Shown: piece by piece, positions 95 to 12,388 of the stretch
Layout of the letters: each line of letters begins with the position of its first letter
Numbering within the stretch: position 1 is the stretch's first letter
Notes under the pieces: generated by a model
Databases searched by the model: none
Seen by the model: the letters and a program-made list of their open reading frames with translations, nothing else
What the model was told of the DNA's origin: nothing
Virus record (IMG/VR): IMGVR_UViG_3300032087_004203
Coordinates: 1-20,015 of that record
Length of the DNA: 20,015 nucleotides
Strand: one strand, 5' to 3'
Source of the DNA: a virus
Made by a program: the position numbers and the translations under genes

Positions 95-123
95 AATATA
101 CAATTATTTTAAAACTTTGTCAA
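95..123 (-). promoter_or_regulatory. Sigma70-type promoter, TTGACA-17-TATATT
   Basis: On the minus strand the -35 box TTGACA is at 123-118 and the -10 box TATATT at 100-95, with exactly 17 bases between. The -35 lies inside the last codons of the 104-637 gene (its L-D-K), and the -10 is in the intergenic gap. It would drive the truncated gene at 59-1 and whatever follows. Confidence 0.6.
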
Positions 124-637
124 GTTTATATTGTGACCAATCTGTAAATTTATTTTTGTCCTTTAATTCATGTAAGCTATGACACCACACACCGGGATTT
201 GTTGCTTTAAAATCTACATCATCTATTTTTAACATAGTGTTATAGGGCCATTGCTGTACATACGGCATTGGAATACGTATTTGCGGTATAACATTATTAC
301 GCTCAACTATTGCACTTTGTAAAAATGTTTCAGCTTTGTCATACGGAATATCTATACTACACAGTATATCTTGATTTACAAAGTGCATTATGTATATTTC
401 CCACTTACGCCACATATGATCATCTTTTGGATTAAAAGAATGATTTGCGCCGAAGAAAATATGTTCACATTGTTCTTTTTCGTAATGTCTTTCAATAGTA
501 TCTAGAGGTTTTATTCCAACTACAAAAAGTGTTTTCATTCCATAAGCAGGTGTTTTTTCAACTTCATAACCTGTAAAAAAAGTTACATCGTTCTTTTCGC
601 CAGTGTCGTAATCTCTGTTCACTTTAAATTTTTCCAT
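104..637 (-). CDS. Conserved phage hypothetical protein, 177 aa
   Basis: I do not recognise a named family. The protein is soluble-looking, with no signal peptide or membrane segment. Its most distinctive parts are HIFFGANHSFNP at about residues 60-71, IPMPYVQQWPYNTMLKIDD at about 122-140, and NPGVWCHSLHEL at about 147-158. I believe similar proteins occur in marine T4-like phages, but that is memory, not a search. The ATG at 637 lies 19 bases inside the 3' end of the phosphoribosyltransferase gene, so the two are probably translationally coupled. It is the last gene of the run clamp, TGT-like enzyme, phosphoribosyltransferase, this gene. A role linked to nucleotide or base metabolism is only guilt by association. 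Its 3' end contains the -35 box of the next promoter. Confidence 0.75.
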   Translation of the reverse strand: MEKFKVNRDYDTGEKNDVTFFTGYEVEKTPAYGMKTLFVVGIKPLDTIERHYEKEQCEHIFFGANHSFNPKDDHMWRKWEIYIMHFVNQDILCSIDIPYDKAETFLQSAIVERNNVIPQIRIPMPYVQQWPYNTMLKIDDVDFKATNPGVWCHSLHELKDKNKFTDWSQYKLDKVLK

Positions 638-1014
638 ATACTAGAAGCCATTTGAAACAGCGCATTAACTTGTTGGTTTGCAGGATTTCTAGCAAATGCA
701 ACCCAGCAAATTACATCTTGATCTGCATAATTTTCTTCAACAAAATCTTTAAAACTTGTACCAGTAGTGTAAACATCATCTACAATTAGTATAGGGTGTT
801 TTTCGTCTCCTGTGGCATATTTCTCCATTGCATACTGCAATGGCAACCCGCCACGTGGAATACCAACTACTTTTGAAAAAGGACGATTTTCAATTTCCGA
901 GATCATAAGTCCTAGGCATTCCCAGTCGTCTTCGGTAAGTCCGTCACATTCAATTTTCCATTTAAGATCAAGGCCTGCATGTGATACAAAGTCTTCTTTT
1001 ACAAATATTGTCAT
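619..1014 (-). CDS. Phosphoribosyltransferase-like protein, 131 aa
   Basis: This is a short type I phosphoribosyltransferase-like protein. The diagnostic PRPP-binding loop is ILIVDDVYTTGTS at residues 75-87, with the acidic pair followed by the TTGTS phosphate loop. VVGIPRGGLPL at 49-59 is the usual preceding strand and pyrophosphate-loop region. At 131 residues it is shorter than typical purine or orotate PRTases (about 170-210) and lacks an obvious base-specificity hood, so the substrate cannot be read. The ATG at 1014 has AAGGAA upstream, formed by the end of the TGT-like gene 9 bases away. Its position directly after a TGT/DpdA-like gene suggests a shared pathway in nucleotide salvage or base modification. 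Family assignment is secure; the role is inference. Confidence 0.85.
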   Translation of the reverse strand: MTIFVKEDFVSHAGLDLKWKIECDGLTEDDWECLGLMISEIENRPFSKVVGIPRGGLPLQYAMEKYATGDEKHPILIVDDVYTTGTSFKDFVEENYADQDVICWVAFARNPANQQVNALFQMASSIWKNLK

Positions 1015-1023
1015 TTTATTTCC

Positions 1024-2478
1024 TTACTCAAAAAACTTATTAAAGTTTGCACTAGCATTTATTGTTTTCTTTCCAACAGCACCTCGTGTACCAATCACAG
1101 TTAAAAAGAAGTTTCTGTGTTTTTCAACTTCTGCTAATGCACGATCACGGTTGTCTATACTAAAAATACGTTCTACAACATCTCTAAAATATATTCTATC
1201 AAATGTTTCGTCTACTAACATTTTAGGAATAACACCTGCATCATACTGTCTGTTTGCTTCTTGCACAGCATTCAAATGACTCCATACATTATGTCCCATT
1301 TGTAGTGCATAACTAAAAGAATCCCAACTAGTTTTTCCTTCTTTACCTATTTTATTTAAGTCGCCAGGGGCATATGTACAAATGTCACTTACTTTAAGAC
1401 CGTCACTAATTGGAGAATCTGTGAAGTTTTCAAAAATACCGTCGGCTAATGTAGCATCTCGAAAGCCTCTAGCATCAGTGGCGTATTTTTTATCGTCTAC
1501 ACTAGGCACCATGCGATATACCCACTTTGATCTATCTTCAGTTTCAGTTTGTATATAAATTTGTCCATTTGCAGTAGCAAGGAACGGAGAAGCGCAGTCG
1601 AACGTAATTGTAAAGTTTTCGTTATGATACTTTCGAATAGCTCGTTGAACGTCAGTAAGCAGTACAGCCCATTCTAGCTTACTAGTACCTAAGAAGTGCA
1701 TAACATCGTGTATGCCTTTTTCTAATAACCCGTCGAACCGTAGCGTAACAAGACGCTTGATAGCAAGTTCGATATCACACATGTTTTGACCACCCATTGC
1801 CCAGCCGTTAAAATGTGTATCTGGATACAGCTTTGGGTCGCAGAAGTCTTTCATTTGCTCGTACCAGTCGTCAGCTTGATCAAAGTTTTCACCTTGTAGG
1901 ACATTCAAAAACTTACAAGCACCTGTACGATTCTTTTGCCAGTAATCATTATTAATCCGTGTAGCATTTACAGCTTCTTGGTATGTGCTAATACCTGTTG
2001 CACGTTGTCCTGCTTCTGATCTAGATACCCATGCTGGAATATCAAGAATCATACCGTAGTCCATGTATGCATCCATCCACTTGAGCACACCATCACGTTT
2101 TTTGTGTGCTTTAGGACAGTTAGGATCTTTCCAATCACCTTCCCATACACCCTTACCAATTTGGAAACCACCTGAGTCGCCTAGTACCCAAGTATTATCT
2201 CTATCTCTATTACGCACCATATCTTCTTTTGGTGCTTCTTTAGTAGTGTCTAGGTCAGCATGCCCAGCAGAGTACAGTGTCCACTTGTATTGGAATTTAC
2301 CTTCATCTTTGTTTAGGTAGTTTAAACTTTCAATGCCATTAGGTAGATTACTGGGAATTCTATCTGCAGAAACATATTCGTCAAAGCGCTGCTTACCTAC
2401 ATAAGTGGCATAAAAACCACTTAGTGCAGGAAGAAATATAGCATAATCATTTTGTGTTTCAGTTAAGTTTGTGTTCAT
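1024..2478 (-). CDS. TGT/DpdA-superfamily guanine transglycosylase-like enzyme, 484 aa
   Basis: tRNA-guanine transglycosylases swap a guanine base for a 7-deazaguanine. Phage DpdA relatives do this in DNA, which protects it from host nucleases. The superfamily signatures are in order: LGDSGGFQIG at 99-108 (catalytic/binding Asp101), MILDIPAW at 143-150 (Asp146, position of the LDE motif), NVLQGENF at 192-199, GWAMGGQ at 225-231 (cf. GGLAVGE), and FDCASP at 293-298, where Asp294 matches the catalytic nucleophile of FDCVxPTR. The C-terminal Cys-x-Cys-x2-Cys plus His zinc site of true tRNA TGTs is not visible, and 484 residues exceeds the usual 370-390. Both points favour a DpdA-like DNA enzyme over a tRNA enzyme. 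The start overlaps the clamp stop (TAATG at 2478), placing it in the clamp operon. No preQ0 synthesis genes are in the window; they would be elsewhere or host-supplied. Confidence 0.8.
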   Translation of the reverse strand: MNTNLTETQNDYAIFLPALSGFYATYVGKQRFDEYVSADRIPSNLPNGIESLNYLNKDEGKFQYKWTLYSAGHADLDTTKEAPKEDMVRNRDRDNTWVLGDSGGFQIGKGVWEGDWKDPNCPKAHKKRDGVLKWMDAYMDYGMILDIPAWVSRSEAGQRATGISTYQEAVNATRINNDYWQKNRTGACKFLNVLQGENFDQADDWYEQMKDFCDPKLYPDTHFNGWAMGGQNMCDIELAIKRLVTLRFDGLLEKGIHDVMHFLGTSKLEWAVLLTDVQRAIRKYHNENFTITFDCASPFLATANGQIYIQTETEDRSKWVYRMVPSVDDKKYATDARGFRDATLADGIFENFTDSPISDGLKVSDICTYAPGDLNKIGKEGKTSWDSFSYALQMGHNVWSHLNAVQEANRQYDAGVIPKMLVDETFDRIYFRDVVERIFSIDNRDRALAEVEKHRNFFLTVIGTRGAVGKKTINASANFNKFFE

Positions 2479-3209
2479 TACTTACTTTGTGCAGGAATAA
2501 TATAGTCGTATGTAGTCATGCCGCTGTCTACAGTAATTTTCATAGCACCTTGATCAGAAATACTCATTGTAACATCGCCATCTAAGTTGAGAATGCTTTG
2601 TACTTGTGCTACAGGATAAGACCAAGTATGCTGTAACTGTCCGCTTACATTTGCTTCAAAAATAAATTCACCAGCGTGTGTGTTTGCATCGCCAAACGAG
2701 AATACTAAATTATTGTTACTTGTAGATACTCGAAATAGTGGCTCTTCTGAATGTGCAGCACTCATAAGTTTAAGTCTGCTAATACTAGCAAGTGTTGGCT
2801 CGAACACAATTACCCACGTAGCACCTTTGAACTTTACTGCTTTGAGTTTTTCTTCGATAATAGCTTTACTCATAAAGCGATAGTCGTTATGAAAGTCGCC
2901 ACTAGAATTTTCAAAATGAATGTGTGTAGGAATAGTATCGCCGTTGCGCACATCTGTAATAACTTCAATCTTCTCGTTTTCACGATACTCAGGATTCTTA
3001 AGATGCAAAGAAAGTTTATCTAAGTTTGGCATTCCAAATGTATCATTAAACTCTGCAACAGGCGTATGCGTTTTAGCTGTAACAATTACACTGCGATCTT
3101 CAGCCATTGATTCAATAACAGTATCATTTGCATCGCTTACACTTACTTTTACCATAGGAAGACCTAGAGTATGTGTATGTGCAACAATGTCTTGTAAAAT
3201 ATCTTTCAT
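2478..3209 (-). CDS. 45: Sliding clamp, gp45-type DNA polymerase processivity factor
   Basis: This 243-residue protein matches the length and layout of T4-type clamps (gp45, 228 aa). These form a trimeric ring that tethers gp43 to DNA and also activates late transcription. The visible resemblance is structural rather than a strict motif: a helix followed by alternating strands, the segment FGMPNLDKLSLHLKNPEY at about 58-75 (cf. DL--FLG--SLF-NP in other gp45s), an FMSKAIIEE helix near 113, and a C-terminal strand ending TYDYIIPAQ. GGAG lies 8 bases before the ATG at 3209, and a strong sigma70-type promoter sits just upstream (3231-3259). The polymerase gene is two genes upstream, so both replisome parts are close. 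The polymerase ends in a clamp-binding-like tail. The assignment is a family-level recognition and could be tested by structure prediction. Confidence 0.72.
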   Translation of the reverse strand: MKDILQDIVAHTHTLGLPMVKVSVSDANDTVIESMAEDRSVIVTAKTHTPVAEFNDTFGMPNLDKLSLHLKNPEYRENEKIEVITDVRNGDTIPTHIHFENSSGDFHNDYRFMSKAIIEEKLKAVKFKGATWVIVFEPTLASISRLKLMSAAHSEEPLFRVSTSNNNLVFSFGDANTHAGEFIFEANVSGQLQHTWSYPVAQVQSILNLDGDVTMSISDQGAMKITVDSGMTTYDYIIPAQSK

Positions 3210-3271: not shown

Positions 3272-3736
3272 TTATTTACGTGGTGGAATAATATTTTTAT
3301 ACCACGGAGATGTTGCAGCTGGTTCTTTCAACGCATCACAAACTCTTTGTCTTATATCACTAGAGCTAAATCTATGATCACGTTTATTAAAATACAATTC
3401 TATATTTTTACGTTTGCACAGATCTCTACCAGTGAATTCTTTTTCTTTATATTCTTCGCCTAAAATTCTAACATTTATAGGATAAATTTTCAAAATGTCT
3501 AACAAATCTTCTTCTGTTTGATAACAAATTATTTCATCAACGTACTTTACACCTTTTAGTTGTATAAATCTTTCTACTAATGTTTGTACTGGTTTGTTTT
3601 TTTCTGGCCTATCAACAGATGGATCAACTTGTAAACCTACAACTAGGTAATCACACTGATCTTTTGCGTCTGCAAGCATTTGCACATGACCAGCATGCAG
3701 CAAATCAAATGTGCTTGCAGTGAAACCCATTTTCAT
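3272..3736 (-). CDS. Cytidylyltransferase-like nucleotidyltransferase (TagD/HldE-C type), 154 aa
   Basis: This is a small alpha/beta-phosphodiesterase-fold nucleotidyltransferase, which joins an NTP to a phosphorylated alcohol or sugar (for example glycerol-3-phosphate to CDP-glycerol). FTASTFDLLHAGHVQML at 5-21 holds the HxGH motif (HAGH 14-17), DYLVVGLQVD follows at 29-38, and HRFSSSDIRQRV at 121-132 is the position of the second signature (RTEGISTT in TagD). Length matches TagD-like enzymes. I chose the ATG at 3736 because AGGAGAC lies 7 bases upstream and it overlaps the SDR stop as ATGA. Reading further upstream gives an implausible arginine/tyrosine-rich extension. A start at residue 3 (MGFTAS) is also possible. 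Coupling to an SDR suggests a small pathway making an activated polyol or sugar, perhaps for glycosylation or envelope modification. The substrate is unknown. Confidence 0.85.
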   Translation of the reverse strand: MKMGFTASTFDLLHAGHVQMLADAKDQCDYLVVGLQVDPSVDRPEKNKPVQTLVERFIQLKGVKYVDEIICYQTEEDLLDILKIYPINVRILGEEYKEKEFTGRDLCKRKNIELYFNKRDHRFSSSDIRQRVCDALKEPAATSPWYKNIIPPRK

Positions 3737-4179
3737 TTTTTGTCTCCTTGGTCGGGTGTAATAGTTATATCTTTTACTCTGTGTGGTTGTTGTAATATCC
3801 AATCGATTACATTTACACAATAATCTAAGCTCATCTTATAAGCATCTACGTGTGCAACTCTTGGACTATCAAACCATCCAAATCTTACGCTAGTTGTATT
3901 CACTCCTTGATAGTAAAGTTGTTCGTTTGCTTTGTCGAGCGCAGCTTTTTCTACTGCATAGATATGCGGTTTTGGTTTATTTCCGTCACCGCTATTACTA
4001 CTAATATTAATAATTCTTTTACCTAGTGCGGCAGCATCATACAATAGTTCAACTTGCGAAAAACCATCATGCTTACAATTAATAAAAATATCGCATTCTT
4101 CTAGGCTTGCGCAATTACCATATTTTTCTGCTAATGCTTTTCCTAAGCCTCTTCGTGAACCTGTAACAAAAAATTTCAT
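3733..4179 (-). CDS. Compact short-chain dehydrogenase/reductase-like protein, 148 aa
   Basis: The N-terminal MKFFVTGSRRGLGKAL holds the SDR nucleotide-binding motif TGxxxGxG (TGSRRGLG, 6-13). IINISSNSG at 56-64 supplies the catalytic-serine strand, and YAVEK at 74-78 is the YxxxK catalytic pair. Classical SDRs are about 250 residues. Here the region between the glycine motif and the serine strand is shortened to about 45 residues, which removes the usual adenine-pocket strands and helices, yet the catalytic residues are kept. It is therefore either a minimal active SDR, possibly with altered cofactor binding, or a non-catalytic Rossmann protein. It starts at a TAATG junction with the polymerase stop, has only a weak GAG upstream, and ends in an ATGA overlap with the cytidylyltransferase, so translation is probably coupled. 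The NAD(P) preference is not readable. Confidence 0.82.
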   Translation of the reverse strand: MKFFVTGSRRGLGKALAEKYGNCASLEECDIFINCKHDGFSQVELLYDAAALGKRIINISSNSGDGNKPKPHIYAVEKAALDKANEQLYYQGVNTTSVRFGWFDSPRVAHVDAYKMSLDYCVNVIDWILQQPHRVKDITITPDQGDKK

Positions 4180-6857
4180 TATTCGAACTCAAATAAACTT
4201 GCAAATGTTGTATTTTGTTTTGTGTCTTCCAACGGATAGTTTAGCACACCGATTAAATTATCTAATTTATTATCAATTATAGTTTCAGCCATCGCAGCAT
4301 CGTCAAATGGCAATTCTGTAAACCATTGCGGCAGTCTAAGTTCATCAGTTGGGTATCCGATACTTGTATAACCTAGTGGATTTGGTTTAAGCTTACACAC
4401 AATAGTTTTCATACCATCTACAATATCTTGAGAGTATTTGTCACCGTGTACTCTTTTTAGTGTATTCCAGTTTAATGCTGCTCTTACGTGCCCTGGCATG
4501 TTGGCTTTGCCCTGCTTTTCTTCAAGTGTTCTAAACTTATTTAGGTTATTTACACGTTTGGGTGTACCTTTTTCCCATGCAGGACGTGACTCAAAGTCTT
4601 TTCTAAATTGTATAATCATATCAAGAATTTCTTGTTGCGGAGCACTTTCGAGTACTCTTGTTAAAATTCTCATTAAAAATTCTTGCATATACGGCGGCGT
4701 GTCTGCACGACGCAAGTCTAAGCCCATTGCTTTTACTTTTCCGCTTTTGCCATCTATGTCTTTTCTATTGCCTTCGTCGTCGATTACAAGTGCAGCATAT
4801 CGTTTCTTTGTAATATATAAACCTGATTCTGCAACAATTTCTCTACCAGCTGCAATTACGTCACTTCTACTGTTTGGGCAATGAAACGCTTTTTGCATAA
4901 AATCTGGAAAAGTTGAGTTAGCTTGTTCTGCTATTTGATTGTATAGAGTAATTACGTTTTCTTTACTCCACGGTATATTACCAGCGTCGATGTCTTTTTT
5001 CAATACAGGATAAGCTGAAAAGTAAACTGAGTCTGTATCGCCGTAAATTACAGTTTCACCTACATGATCATATTCACCAGTAGCAACTTTGTTAACTTCG
5101 GCACTCATATGTTTTACAATTTGTCGACCTGTGAGTGTTGTGCTTTGACCAATACGCTTATCGAAGAATCTACAGCCAGGATTTAGAATTGCACCATACA
5201 ACGAGTTAAGATTAATCTTTTTAACTAGTTGTCGCTTATCCCAGTATTCAATTTCAGCTTTATTGCCAGCAGCAATTGCTTTCTTAAGTTTACCTTGAAG
5301 TTCTTTTCTTTCAGCATACCAGCGTTTCAAAATACCCGGAATAACAGCTTCGAATTCATGTGTAAAAATAGTACCATTTGCACTAAGCATCCAAGGCATG
5401 TTACTGTCAAAAATTAGTTTATGAACTTCGGCTGCACTTAATACATTGCTACCGCCTTCTTCCCAATCTATTGTGATCATAAAGTCTTTACGCTGTTCCA
5501 TAACAGCTTCGTACTCTAACGAACCAAAATGTCCTTCCCATGCTGCTGCAAATGATTTTTTCTTAAGGGTAGTAGCTTCGTGAATCATTGCATCGGTAGC
5601 ATCGGGACGAAGTTGTCCTACAATGCTTTCAGGAGCCATGTTTAGTGCACGAATTACACTAGGATACAGTGAGTTCAAGTCCATAGAGCCGATCCACTTG
5701 TGTAGTCCTTTTTTCGGATAGGCTACATAAGCACCAGCAGCACCTGTTGTTTCATGCTCGCGACGATTGGGTACTTGCATGCCTCTACGATGTGCTTCGT
5801 TTACAATTGCTTGTTCCGTCACTGCTACTGCTCCCATAGTAGTTTGCAGTAGCACAGTATTTGCATGTGCAAGTTCATTTGCAAGATCAATAAACCGCAG
5901 TTTCTTATCTAGTTTATCGAGTAGTGCAACGTCCTGCCTGTTATATTCAATAAACTTTTCAAAGTCATTGTTGTAAAGCTGATCAAGTGTACCTTCATAT
6001 GCAGTTTTGTTTTCTCCTACTTCATATTCGCCAATAGCATCTAGTTTGTAAGAGTGACGTTCTTCGTATGTATACTTTCTATATAGATTAAGATAATCCA
6101 TGTGTACACGACCGATAGTGTCATACGTTTCGCTCGTTTTGCCAAATTTTTCAAACTCACGACGCTTTGGCAATTGTTGCCATAGACAGAATCTGCGTGT
6201 ATCGTCTTTACTTAAAACACGGGCAATTCTGTTAATTGTATATGGTACATCATAACCTTCTGAGTTCCAACCGCTGTGGATATCAGCATCTTCAATCAAG
6301 TCGAGGAATGCTTCAAGCATATCGCTCTCGCCTTGTTTACTGTTAGGAAACAAGATACATTCTTCACCCCAACGCTCTTTACACATCGCTGCTGCTTCGT
6401 CGTATGGCAAGCCCTTCGGCGGCATAGCAACTGTAACTAGAACTTCCAACCATTGCAAATATACTGTAATAGCAGTAATTGGCATAAATGGATCTTCAGG
6501 CGGAGCAAAGCCTTTATCAGGATCAAAGTCTGTCTCAATATCCCAAAACGCAACATTTAGTTTTGGTGAATCTTGATTCAAATAGTTTTCACTTAAACAT
6601 TGAAAGATAGGATTAGTATCACTTTCAAAAAGCTTTAAGTGTTTGTTTATTGCAAGTTCTTTTTTGAACTCTTTTGTGTTCTTACACACAATACGTTTAA
6701 GAGGCTCGCCGTGTGTGCTTTTATATTTGCCGGCAGCATCTGCGTAATAGAAAGTATATTTTGCTTGAATGTCTTTGAAAACACGCTTGCCTTCAATACG
6801 TTCTACAATTCTAATAATGTCTGCATCTCTGTCAAAAAAAGCGTCAACGTATGGCAT
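4179..6857 (-). CDS. 43: Replicative DNA polymerase, family B, T4 gp43-like, 892 aa
   Basis: This is a complete, uninterrupted family B polymerase, close in length to T4 gp43 (898). Exonuclease motifs: FWDIET at 104-109, NSEGYD at 198-203, YNRQD at 305-309. Polymerase motifs: A, DLNSLYPS at 393-400; B, KKINLNSLYGAI at 546-557; C, YGDTDS at 605-610; KKRYAAL follows at 684-690. All catalytic acids are present, so both synthesis and 3'-5' proofreading should be active. The C-terminus ends FASLFEFE, resembling the clamp-binding tail of gp43. It starts 3 bases after the DsbA-like stop. The only Shine-Dalgarno-like bases (GTAGAG) sit too close to the ATG, so translation is probably coupled to the upstream gene and may be a control point. 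No intein or frameshift is visible, unlike some T4-like relatives in which gene 43 is split. Confidence 0.98.
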   Translation of the reverse strand: MPYVDAFFDRDADIIRIVERIEGKRVFKDIQAKYTFYYADAAGKYKSTHGEPLKRIVCKNTKEFKKELAINKHLKLFESDTNPIFQCLSENYLNQDSPKLNVAFWDIETDFDPDKGFAPPEDPFMPITAITVYLQWLEVLVTVAMPPKGLPYDEAAAMCKERWGEECILFPNSKQGESDMLEAFLDLIEDADIHSGWNSEGYDVPYTINRIARVLSKDDTRRFCLWQQLPKRREFEKFGKTSETYDTIGRVHMDYLNLYRKYTYEERHSYKLDAIGEYEVGENKTAYEGTLDQLYNNDFEKFIEYNRQDVALLDKLDKKLRFIDLANELAHANTVLLQTTMGAVAVTEQAIVNEAHRRGMQVPNRREHETTGAAGAYVAYPKKGLHKWIGSMDLNSLYPSVIRALNMAPESIVGQLRPDATDAMIHEATTLKKKSFAAAWEGHFGSLEYEAVMEQRKDFMITIDWEEGGSNVLSAAEVHKLIFDSNMPWMLSANGTIFTHEFEAVIPGILKRWYAERKELQGKLKKAIAAGNKAEIEYWDKRQLVKKINLNSLYGAILNPGCRFFDKRIGQSTTLTGRQIVKHMSAEVNKVATGEYDHVGETVIYGDTDSVYFSAYPVLKKDIDAGNIPWSKENVITLYNQIAEQANSTFPDFMQKAFHCPNSRSDVIAAGREIVAESGLYITKKRYAALVIDDEGNRKDIDGKSGKVKAMGLDLRRADTPPYMQEFLMRILTRVLESAPQQEILDMIIQFRKDFESRPAWEKGTPKRVNNLNKFRTLEEKQGKANMPGHVRAALNWNTLKRVHGDKYSQDIVDGMKTIVCKLKPNPLGYTSIGYPTDELRLPQWFTELPFDDAAMAETIIDNKLDNLIGVLNYPLEDTKQNTTFASLFEFE

Positions 6858-11327: not shown

Positions 11328-11567
11328 TTATTCTCCTACAGCTTCAGTTACATATGAAACAACTTCGCCGACTGTCATTAAACTTTCAGCATCGTCGTCG
11401 TCAATTGTAATGTCAAACTCGTTTTCAAGTGCTATAACTATTTCTACAGTATCTAAACTGTCAGCACCTAAGTCGTCTATAAAATTAGCAGATTCTGTAA
11501 ACATATCAACGTCTTTGTTTAATGTATCTGCTAGTACTTTTTTAACTTTGTCTGCTAATTCACTCAT
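11328..11567 (-). CDS. acpP: Acyl carrier protein, 79 aa
   Basis: This is a canonical bacterial-type acyl carrier protein that carries acyl chains on a 4'-phosphopantetheine attached to serine. The attachment motif is DLGADSLDTVE at 32-42, with Ser37 modified. The four-helix layout is complete: ELADKVKKVLADTL, the acidic recognition helix EIVIALENEFDI, and a final VGEVVSYVTEAV. Length and acidity match host ACPs (about 78 aa). I chose the ATG at 11567 with AAGGA about 9 bases upstream; an in-frame TTG at 11585 would add six residues and swallow that site. The gene lies inside the late block between a cell-wall peptidase and small cargo-like genes, with no fatty-acid synthesis gene in the window. 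It must rely on host holo-ACP synthase. Why a phage makes its own ACP late is unclear. Confidence 0.95.
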   Translation of the reverse strand: MSELADKVKKVLADTLNKDVDMFTESANFIDDLGADSLDTVEIVIALENEFDITIDDDDAESLMTVGEVVSYVTEAVGE

Positions 11568-11581
11568 TGTTAATTTCCTTT

Positions 11582-11641
11582 TCAATCAAATTCATTACCA
11601 TACCCGGGTGTTTAAGTATCAAATTCATTATTGTATCCGGA
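11582..11641 (-). repeat. Tandem duplication of the peptidase C-terminal codons across its stop
   Basis: The last codons of the peptidase gene, encoding SGYNNEFDT and stop (11641-11612), are followed at once and in the same frame by codons for TPGYGNEFD and a TGA stop (11611-11582). The AATGAATTTGAT core is identical in the two copies. The second copy ends 15 bases upstream of the ACP ATG. It is either a tandem duplication that later gained a stop, or an ancestral double-motif tail cut short by a new TAA. Confidence 0.7.
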
Positions 11642-12388
11642 CGTGTTAGTACTCGCTTTTGCAGCAGCAAGTGCTTTTCTTGTTTCAGGACCAACTATTC
11701 CATCGACCTGTAAACTATTAGCCTGTTGGAAGCGGCGTACTGCTTGTTCTGTGCGAGGCCCAAACTTTCCGTCTATGCCTGTTGAACCAACACTATAACC
11801 TAATTCTTCTAGTCTTGTTTGTAGTTTTTTAACTGTTGGTATTAGTTGTGGACTGTAAGAGCCAGTGTTTCTAAGTAGATTTGCACCTGACGTTGACATA
11901 GGAGCAGAAGGTTTTCTTGTTTTTTTATTGCTAGTAGGCCGTGTTACAGTGGTAGTTTTAGTGCTTGCGCCGCCTCCGTATATATTAGGTCCTCTAGACA
12001 CTTGAATATTGCCTCCTTCTCTAGCTGCTGCGCTAAAATGCATAGCGTCTTTAGAACGGTTCCAATTTCCGCCCCATCCTAAACCGTGTTTTGCAGCTAT
12101 TTGACTTATATTAGGAGGCATGTCAGTAATTAATGTTGGTCCTTGCGGATTGTCATCTGGATTTATGTCAATTGCTAAACCTTGAGCATGATGACTCCAC
12201 TTACCGCTGCTTGTCCTTCTTTTATTATATCCGCCTATAGAGTATATATTATATCCAGTAGCTTCTAAATCATTTACAAAAGCTTGAAATTGTGCCTGCA
12301 CAGGTGCAGCAACCCAAGCTTGTTTGCCACTTTTAGTTGTGATTTTTGCTAAACCCTGTTGTTCAGTAATTATTTCGTTCATTTTCAT
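11612..12388 (-). CDS. M15-type peptidoglycan peptidase with peptidoglycan-binding domain, 258 aa
   Basis: The protein cuts peptide bonds in cell-wall peptidoglycan. The catalytic domain (about 13-125) is a VanY/M15-like zinc peptidase: GGYNKRR at 52-58, SHHAQGLAIDIN at 65-76 fits SxHxxGxAxD with zinc ligands His67 and Asp74, and DAMHF at 114-118 gives the third ligand His117. A Thr/Ser/Lys-rich linker (130-180) leads to a PG_binding_1 domain at 181-241 (VKKLQTRLEELGY, GIDGKFGPRTEQAVRRFQ, DGIVGPETRKAL). The start is MKMNEIITE, a capsid-targeting-like leader with an I-x-E site, instead of a signal peptide. It sits among virion-type genes away from any holin, so a packaged, entry-phase enzyme fits at least as well as a lysis endolysin. 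The ATG at 12388 has only a weak purine run upstream. Confidence 0.9.
   Translation of the reverse strand: MKMNEIITEQQGLAKITTKSGKQAWVAAPVQAQFQAFVNDLEATGYNIYSIGGYNKRRTSSGKWSHHAQGLAIDINPDDNPQGPTLITDMPPNISQIAAKHGLGWGGNWNRSKDAMHFSAAAREGGNIQVSRGPNIYGGGASTKTTTVTRPTSNKKTRKPSAPMSTSGANLLRNTGSYSPQLIPTVKKLQTRLEELGYSVGSTGIDGKFGPRTEQAVRRFQQANSLQVDGIVGPETRKALAAAKASTNTSGYNNEFDT

Follow-up and report, generated by a model that had tools for sequence, protein, structure and literature searches.

How does an enzyme that exchanges bases come to be encoded directly behind a phage's sliding clamp, and which nucleic acid does it act on? We took up this question with a viral fragment from IMG/VR (20,015 bases, hereafter the window), in which the genes around the polymerase and the enzyme all lie on the minus strand. 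They run in the order family B DNA polymerase (4179..6857, assigned by Pfam and PHROG matches), a short FabG-like dehydrogenase ORF (3733-4179), an adenylyltransferase-like gene (CTP_transf_like; 3272-3820), the sliding clamp (2478..3209), a 484-aa DpdA-type transglycosylase (1024..2478), a short phosphoribosyltransferase (PRTase)-like protein of 131 aa (619..1014) and a 177-aa ORF (104..637), after which the fragment ends. The clamp stop and the transglycosylase start overlap by one base (TAATG). A first-pass annotation of the DNA had drawn the last four of these ORFs, and we recovered all of them at these coordinates. We call the neighbor of the transglycosylase a clamp because its family matches the annotated sliding clamp of phage Phosso (E 1.2e-63); sequence comparison with T4 gp45 gave no match. 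The cultured phages with the nearest polymerases are the jumbo phages Phosso, Atu_ph07 and Vibrio phage 2.275.O. Elsewhere in the window, judged by eye, a small ORF at 11328-11585 (-) resembles an acyl-carrier protein (DLGADSLDTVEIVIALE), here in a phage, and 11612-12388 (-) encodes a D-Ala-D-Ala-peptidase-like domain followed by a peptidoglycan-binding domain, likely a lysin.

Fold, catalytic residues and family of the transglycosylase

Sequence searches of Pfam, PHROGs, NCBIfam and the PDB, with either the window protein or its family, returned no match to a tRNA-guanine transglycosylase (TGT), so kinship with these enzymes had to be sought by structure and by profile-profile comparison. An AlphaFold2 model of the 484-aa protein, built from 22 sequences, reached a pLDDT of 83 and a pTM of 0.87, and the top Foldseek matches of this model in the PDB were all TGTs (E 4.7e-6, probability 1.0). 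The predicted structure thus gives the protein a TGT-type barrel fold. The first-pass annotation had read the catalytic positions of the superfamily from the sequence, and they are indeed present: D101 (within D101-SGGFQ), D146 and D294 are identical in 109/109 aligned relatives. In the alignment with E. coli TGT, FDCASP..ANG lies over FDCVMPTRNARNG, and D294 falls on the TGT nucleophile motif FDCV.PTR.ARNG. From established TGT enzymology, we take D294 to be the nucleophile, D101 the acid/base and D146 the residue for base recognition.

Two further features noted in the first pass also stood. The CxCxxC zinc motif, which E. coli TGT carries at 302, is absent from all members of the window family and of DpdA2 that we examined, and the window protein exceeds E. 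coli TGT (375 aa) by 109 residues. Comparison of the window family with the DpdA2 of phages nt-1 and KVP40 by hhalign yielded a match over 189 columns (E 2.4e-8, probability 95%); PHROG 10773, which holds DpdA2 (nt-1 VPFG_00171), reached the family weakly (best E 0.091), and hhalign against the DpdA1 of Enterobacteria phage 9g found nothing. In a tree of 16 rows, the window family formed its own clade with support of 100/100, apart from DpdA2; E. coli TGT and 9g DpdA1 sit on long branches in this tree and their placement is unsure. Phylogeny, to which the first pass had looked for a place among DpdA or TGT clades, therefore did not put the enzyme within DpdA2, and did give it a clade of its own related to DpdA2. 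By these comparisons, the enzyme represents a DpdA clade that is neither DpdA1 nor DpdA2, yet is detectably homologous to the latter. Relatives are encoded in at least 597 IMG/VR stretches and in 13 phage records, including the PA5oct/Paride phages, Phosso and Vibrio phage 2.275.O.

DpdA and DpdA2, and their role, are already established (PMC6884629). Like the window family, DpdA2 is a TGT-superfamily transglycosylase without CxCxxC, shares the DSGG[FL]Q motif, adjoins FolE/QueC/QueE genes and in some members bears a clamp-like tail; the window family differs in being longer, in its location in a polymerase-clamp operon and in its separate 100/100 clade. DpdA1 of phage 9g, which puts 7-deazaguanines into DNA (PMC6884629), likewise adjoins a phage sliding clamp and FolE, but is 317 aa long and shows no resemblance to the window family that sequence comparison could detect. 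That DNA is the substrate here as well we infer from homology and context, since a DpdA2 phage, nt-1, has dPreQ0 measured in its DNA (PMC6884629).

A TGT of the tRNA type, acting on tRNA of the host or the phage in the course of infection, would share this fold and these catalytic residues, and queuosine genes can serve either tRNA or DNA modification. Such an enzyme would nevertheless sit poorly with the missing zinc motif and with a separate clade related to DpdA2, and it would make two features described below hard to explain, the strict association with the clamp and polymerase genes and the tail of polymerase type; we consider it highly improbable.

Genes that accompany the enzyme in relatives

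We compared 100 distinct loci, scoring each gene only where a locus has enough sequence. The usual order is polymerase, clamp, DpdA, 177-aa gene (g177), QueD-like gene (g155), glycosyltransferase (g352), xanthine/guanine PRTase, FolE and QueE. The clamp is adjacent to and upstream of DpdA in 95/96 loci, in line with the coupling to replication proposed in the first pass. Downstream of DpdA lie g177 (82/84), g155 (74/75), g352 (67/67), the xanthine/guanine-type PRTase (49/49), FolE (30/35 distinct loci) and QueE (30/32, assigned from NCBIfam). FolE and QueE are found a few kb 3' of DpdA in nearly all sufficiently long relatives, which agrees with the earlier suggestion that this transglycosylase is of the DNA type and linked to 7-deazaguanine production; FolE is present in 14/14 larger records searched. 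No 7-deazaguanine synthesis gene occurs in the 20-kb window itself, because the fragment breaks off where the remainder of the module would begin.

The first-pass annotation had named both the short PRTase and the 177-aa gene as possible partners, and only the second held up. The 131-aa protein has a PRPP loop (ILIVDDVYTTGTS) and matches Pfam Pribosyltran at E 4.6e-4 with 20 bits, under the 26.3-bit cut-off of that family; it occurs only in two near-identical relatives, L002 and L003 (1/90 distinct loci), and is a local extra gene. The PRTase that is conserved among relatives is encoded by another gene, some 3 kb downstream, and matches xanthine/guanine PRTases; the DpdA2 cluster of phage BUCT-ZZ01 also contains a xanthine-guanine PRTase. 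A search of 50,697 phage records recovered the 177-aa protein in 13, namely those of the PA5oct group and ACP17, all of them DpdA or DpdA2 carriers, and because it is confined in this way we regard the gene as a real partner. Its AlphaFold2 model (pLDDT 85.7) has a predicted alpha/beta fold; a fold search returned no significant match, the best being a class II aldolase (E 0.097). Homologs of g352 in ACP17 and Paride match Glycos_transf_1, by which g352 is assigned as a GT-B-type glycosyltransferase.

Parts of this gene set recur in other phages. ACP17, a DpdA2-type phage, carries FolE, g177, DpdA2, g352, g155 and QueE together, and in X1 and BUCT-ZZ01 DpdA2 is flanked by part of the same partner set. 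PA5oct and Paride encode a DpdA of the window family with clamp, glycosyltransferase, QueD-like, PRTase and QueE genes, but their order is partly rearranged, the 177-aa gene and FolE lie elsewhere, and canonical QueD is present twice. A deazaguanine synthesis and incorporation system in PA5oct was already noted by Iyer and colleagues (PMC7824862). The relative in Vibrio phage 2.275.O adjoins QueF, YhhQ, QueC and FolE. Also adjoining DpdA in that phage is an amidoligase-like gene (L084 13726-14838 (+); PF12224, E 1.8e-4), whose product may possibly target a deazaguanine carboxylate or amine. Probably a jumbo phage as well, a 335-kb contig binned as a Neomarinimicrobiota genome (L154, PBPT01000016.1) contains the polymerase-clamp-DpdA-FolE-QueE module in full.

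Which base the pathway delivers depends on QueD and QueC. The first pass had called for a search for FolE, QueD, QueE and QueC; in relatives FolE and QueE were found, QueD (PF01242) appeared in 6/13 records, and strong, canonical QueC was confined to 2.275.O. Most relatives, in the records searched, lack canonical QueC or QueD. The g155 family has invariant His and Glu residues in a QueD-like pattern, and its profile comparison with QueD is weak (E 0.002, probability 14%). In 8/17 records we found a divergent QueC-like ATP-pyrophosphatase that has the SGGxDS motif and, toward its C-terminus, a cluster of cysteines. Several other QueC candidates proved to be different PP-loop enzymes, among them one in L164 that is ATP_bind_3/TilS-like and one in L167 whose match is limited to the PP-loop end. 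The inserted base could be 7-carboxy-7-deazaguanine, with the pathway stopping there for want of a true QueC, a variant that changes only the base: FolE and QueE are in the lineage, QueD is in some members, and neither the Paride nor the Phosso genome has a QueC match. We think this rather unlikely, given the divergent QueC-like protein, the QueC and QueF of 2.275.O, and the ability of hosts to supply QueC.

The C-terminal tail and the sliding clamp

DpdA ends in the peptide NASANFNKFFE (1027..1059 (-)), a putative clamp-binding tail that the first pass had not seen. In the model, the final 20 residues have a pLDDT of about 35 and are predicted to be disordered. The polymerase of the window ends in NTTFASLFEFE (4182..4214 (-)), its presumed clamp-binding tail; of this pair, FASLFEFE and FNKFFE, the DpdA sequence is the looser match. 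Among marine relatives, F..LF[DE] occurs within the last 60 residues of 81/94 DpdA proteins and 81/84 polymerases. It is absent from the FolE, QueE, clamp, g177, g155, g352 and PRTase sequences and from all 1,395 background ORFs (0/1,395). Because this motif was picked after viewing the tails, the counts describe a pattern and are no pre-planned test; the controls were the background ORFs and two genome-wide scans. In the scan of 2.275.O, the only genes of more than 100 aa ending in LF[DG]W are the polymerase (NNTDLFDW) and DpdA (NNNDLFGW), and in that of Paride, DpdA is the sole ORF with F..LF[DE] near its end, the polymerase terminating in HFDSLFGW. Like pairs of tails are found in ACP17 (SLDDLFE and TLDELFE), Moby (SLEDLFGW and SLDDLFG), X1 (SLESLFG and SLEELFG) and BUCT-ZZ01 (TLDDFFS and SLDSFFD), and the C-terminus of T4 gp43 is SLDFLFG. 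The tail of Phosso DpdA is weak, and in KVP40, nt-1 and pf16 the polymerase has the tail and DpdA2 does not.

Since the tail resembles that of the polymerase and was seen in no other module family and no background ORF, it suggests that DpdA rides the sliding clamp, and on this sequence evidence the tail probably binds the phage clamp. In T4, the clamp ligands gp43, gp55 and gp33 end in hydrophobic and acidic peptides that can be exchanged for one another, and a copy placed internally remains functional (PMC2988020); T4 alpha-glucosyltransferase, an unrelated enzyme that glucosylates hydroxymethylcytosine, is a DNA-modifying enzyme likewise recruited to the sliding clamp, gp45 (PMC13216743). 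Both precedents bear on an alternative in which DNA modification is real and DpdA is untethered, its tail resembling that of the polymerase through, for example, a shared chaperone or protease tag. The DpdA2 enzymes without a tail would fit this alternative, as would the roughly 25-35 further acidic residues that follow the motif in most marine members and place it short of the very end. A working internal motif in T4 speaks against the latter point, however, as the clamp-bound glucosyltransferase does against the alternative as a whole, and in several lineages the DpdA tail varies together with the polymerase tail of the phage that encodes it. We judge an untethered enzyme unlikely.

Two other proteins have endings of related type. 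In BUCT-ZZ01, a 447-aa glycosyltransferase-like protein encoded directly before DpdA2 (L222 4653-5996 (+)) ends in SLEDFFND, a tail like those of the polymerase and DpdA2. DpdA1 of phage 9g (L178 3007-3960 (-)) ends in LQDLFDE, resembling a bacterial beta-clamp motif. In the searchable literature, coverage of which is incomplete, we came across no description of these partner genes or of a DpdA tail that binds the clamp, nor any published data on base modification of the DNA or on clamp binding in the window DpdA family; the foundational DpdA paper nowhere mentions a clamp.

A proposed pathway for base exchange at the clamp

As a whole, these results are best explained by a phage DNA-guanine transglycosylase of a distinct DpdA clade that is tethered to the clamp and inserts a phage-made 7-deazaguanine, a reading to which we assign a probability of about 0.8. 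The 7-deazaguanine base would come from three enzymes whose genes lie just past the window in relatives: FolE, QueE and a QueD-type protein. DpdA would then cut the glycosidic bond of guanine in DNA, with D294 as nucleophile, D101 as acid/base and D146 recognizing the base, and insert the deazaguanine in its place. Its C-terminal peptide would hold the phage sliding clamp, and we therefore propose that modification follows the replication fork. The released guanine would probably be salvaged to GMP by the conserved xanthine/guanine PRTase. The GT-B glycosyltransferase may decorate the new base, although we lean against glycosylation by g352. A broader version, in which DpdA and in some phages a glycosyltransferase too ride the clamp to produce glycosylated 7-deazaguanine, with the 177-aa and QueD-like proteins as dedicated parts and the PRTase recycling guanine, we hold to be doubtful.

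What the first-pass annotation observed is thus confirmed, and its interpretation is partly supported; we share its inference that such modification would block host restriction. With this gene set, the marine giant-phage relatives appear to swap guanines of their own DNA for a modified base, which suggests that the DNA is camouflaged while it is being copied. As Paride and PA5oct are in culture, these claims are directly testable. The analysis adds to DpdA a clade that is missed by sequence libraries yet common in marine phage contigs, and it names partner genes that had gone unrecognized in 7-deazaguanine DNA modification. Further, it offers a testable answer to how a base-exchange enzyme reaches new DNA: by way of the clamp, through a tail matched to that of the phage's own polymerase.
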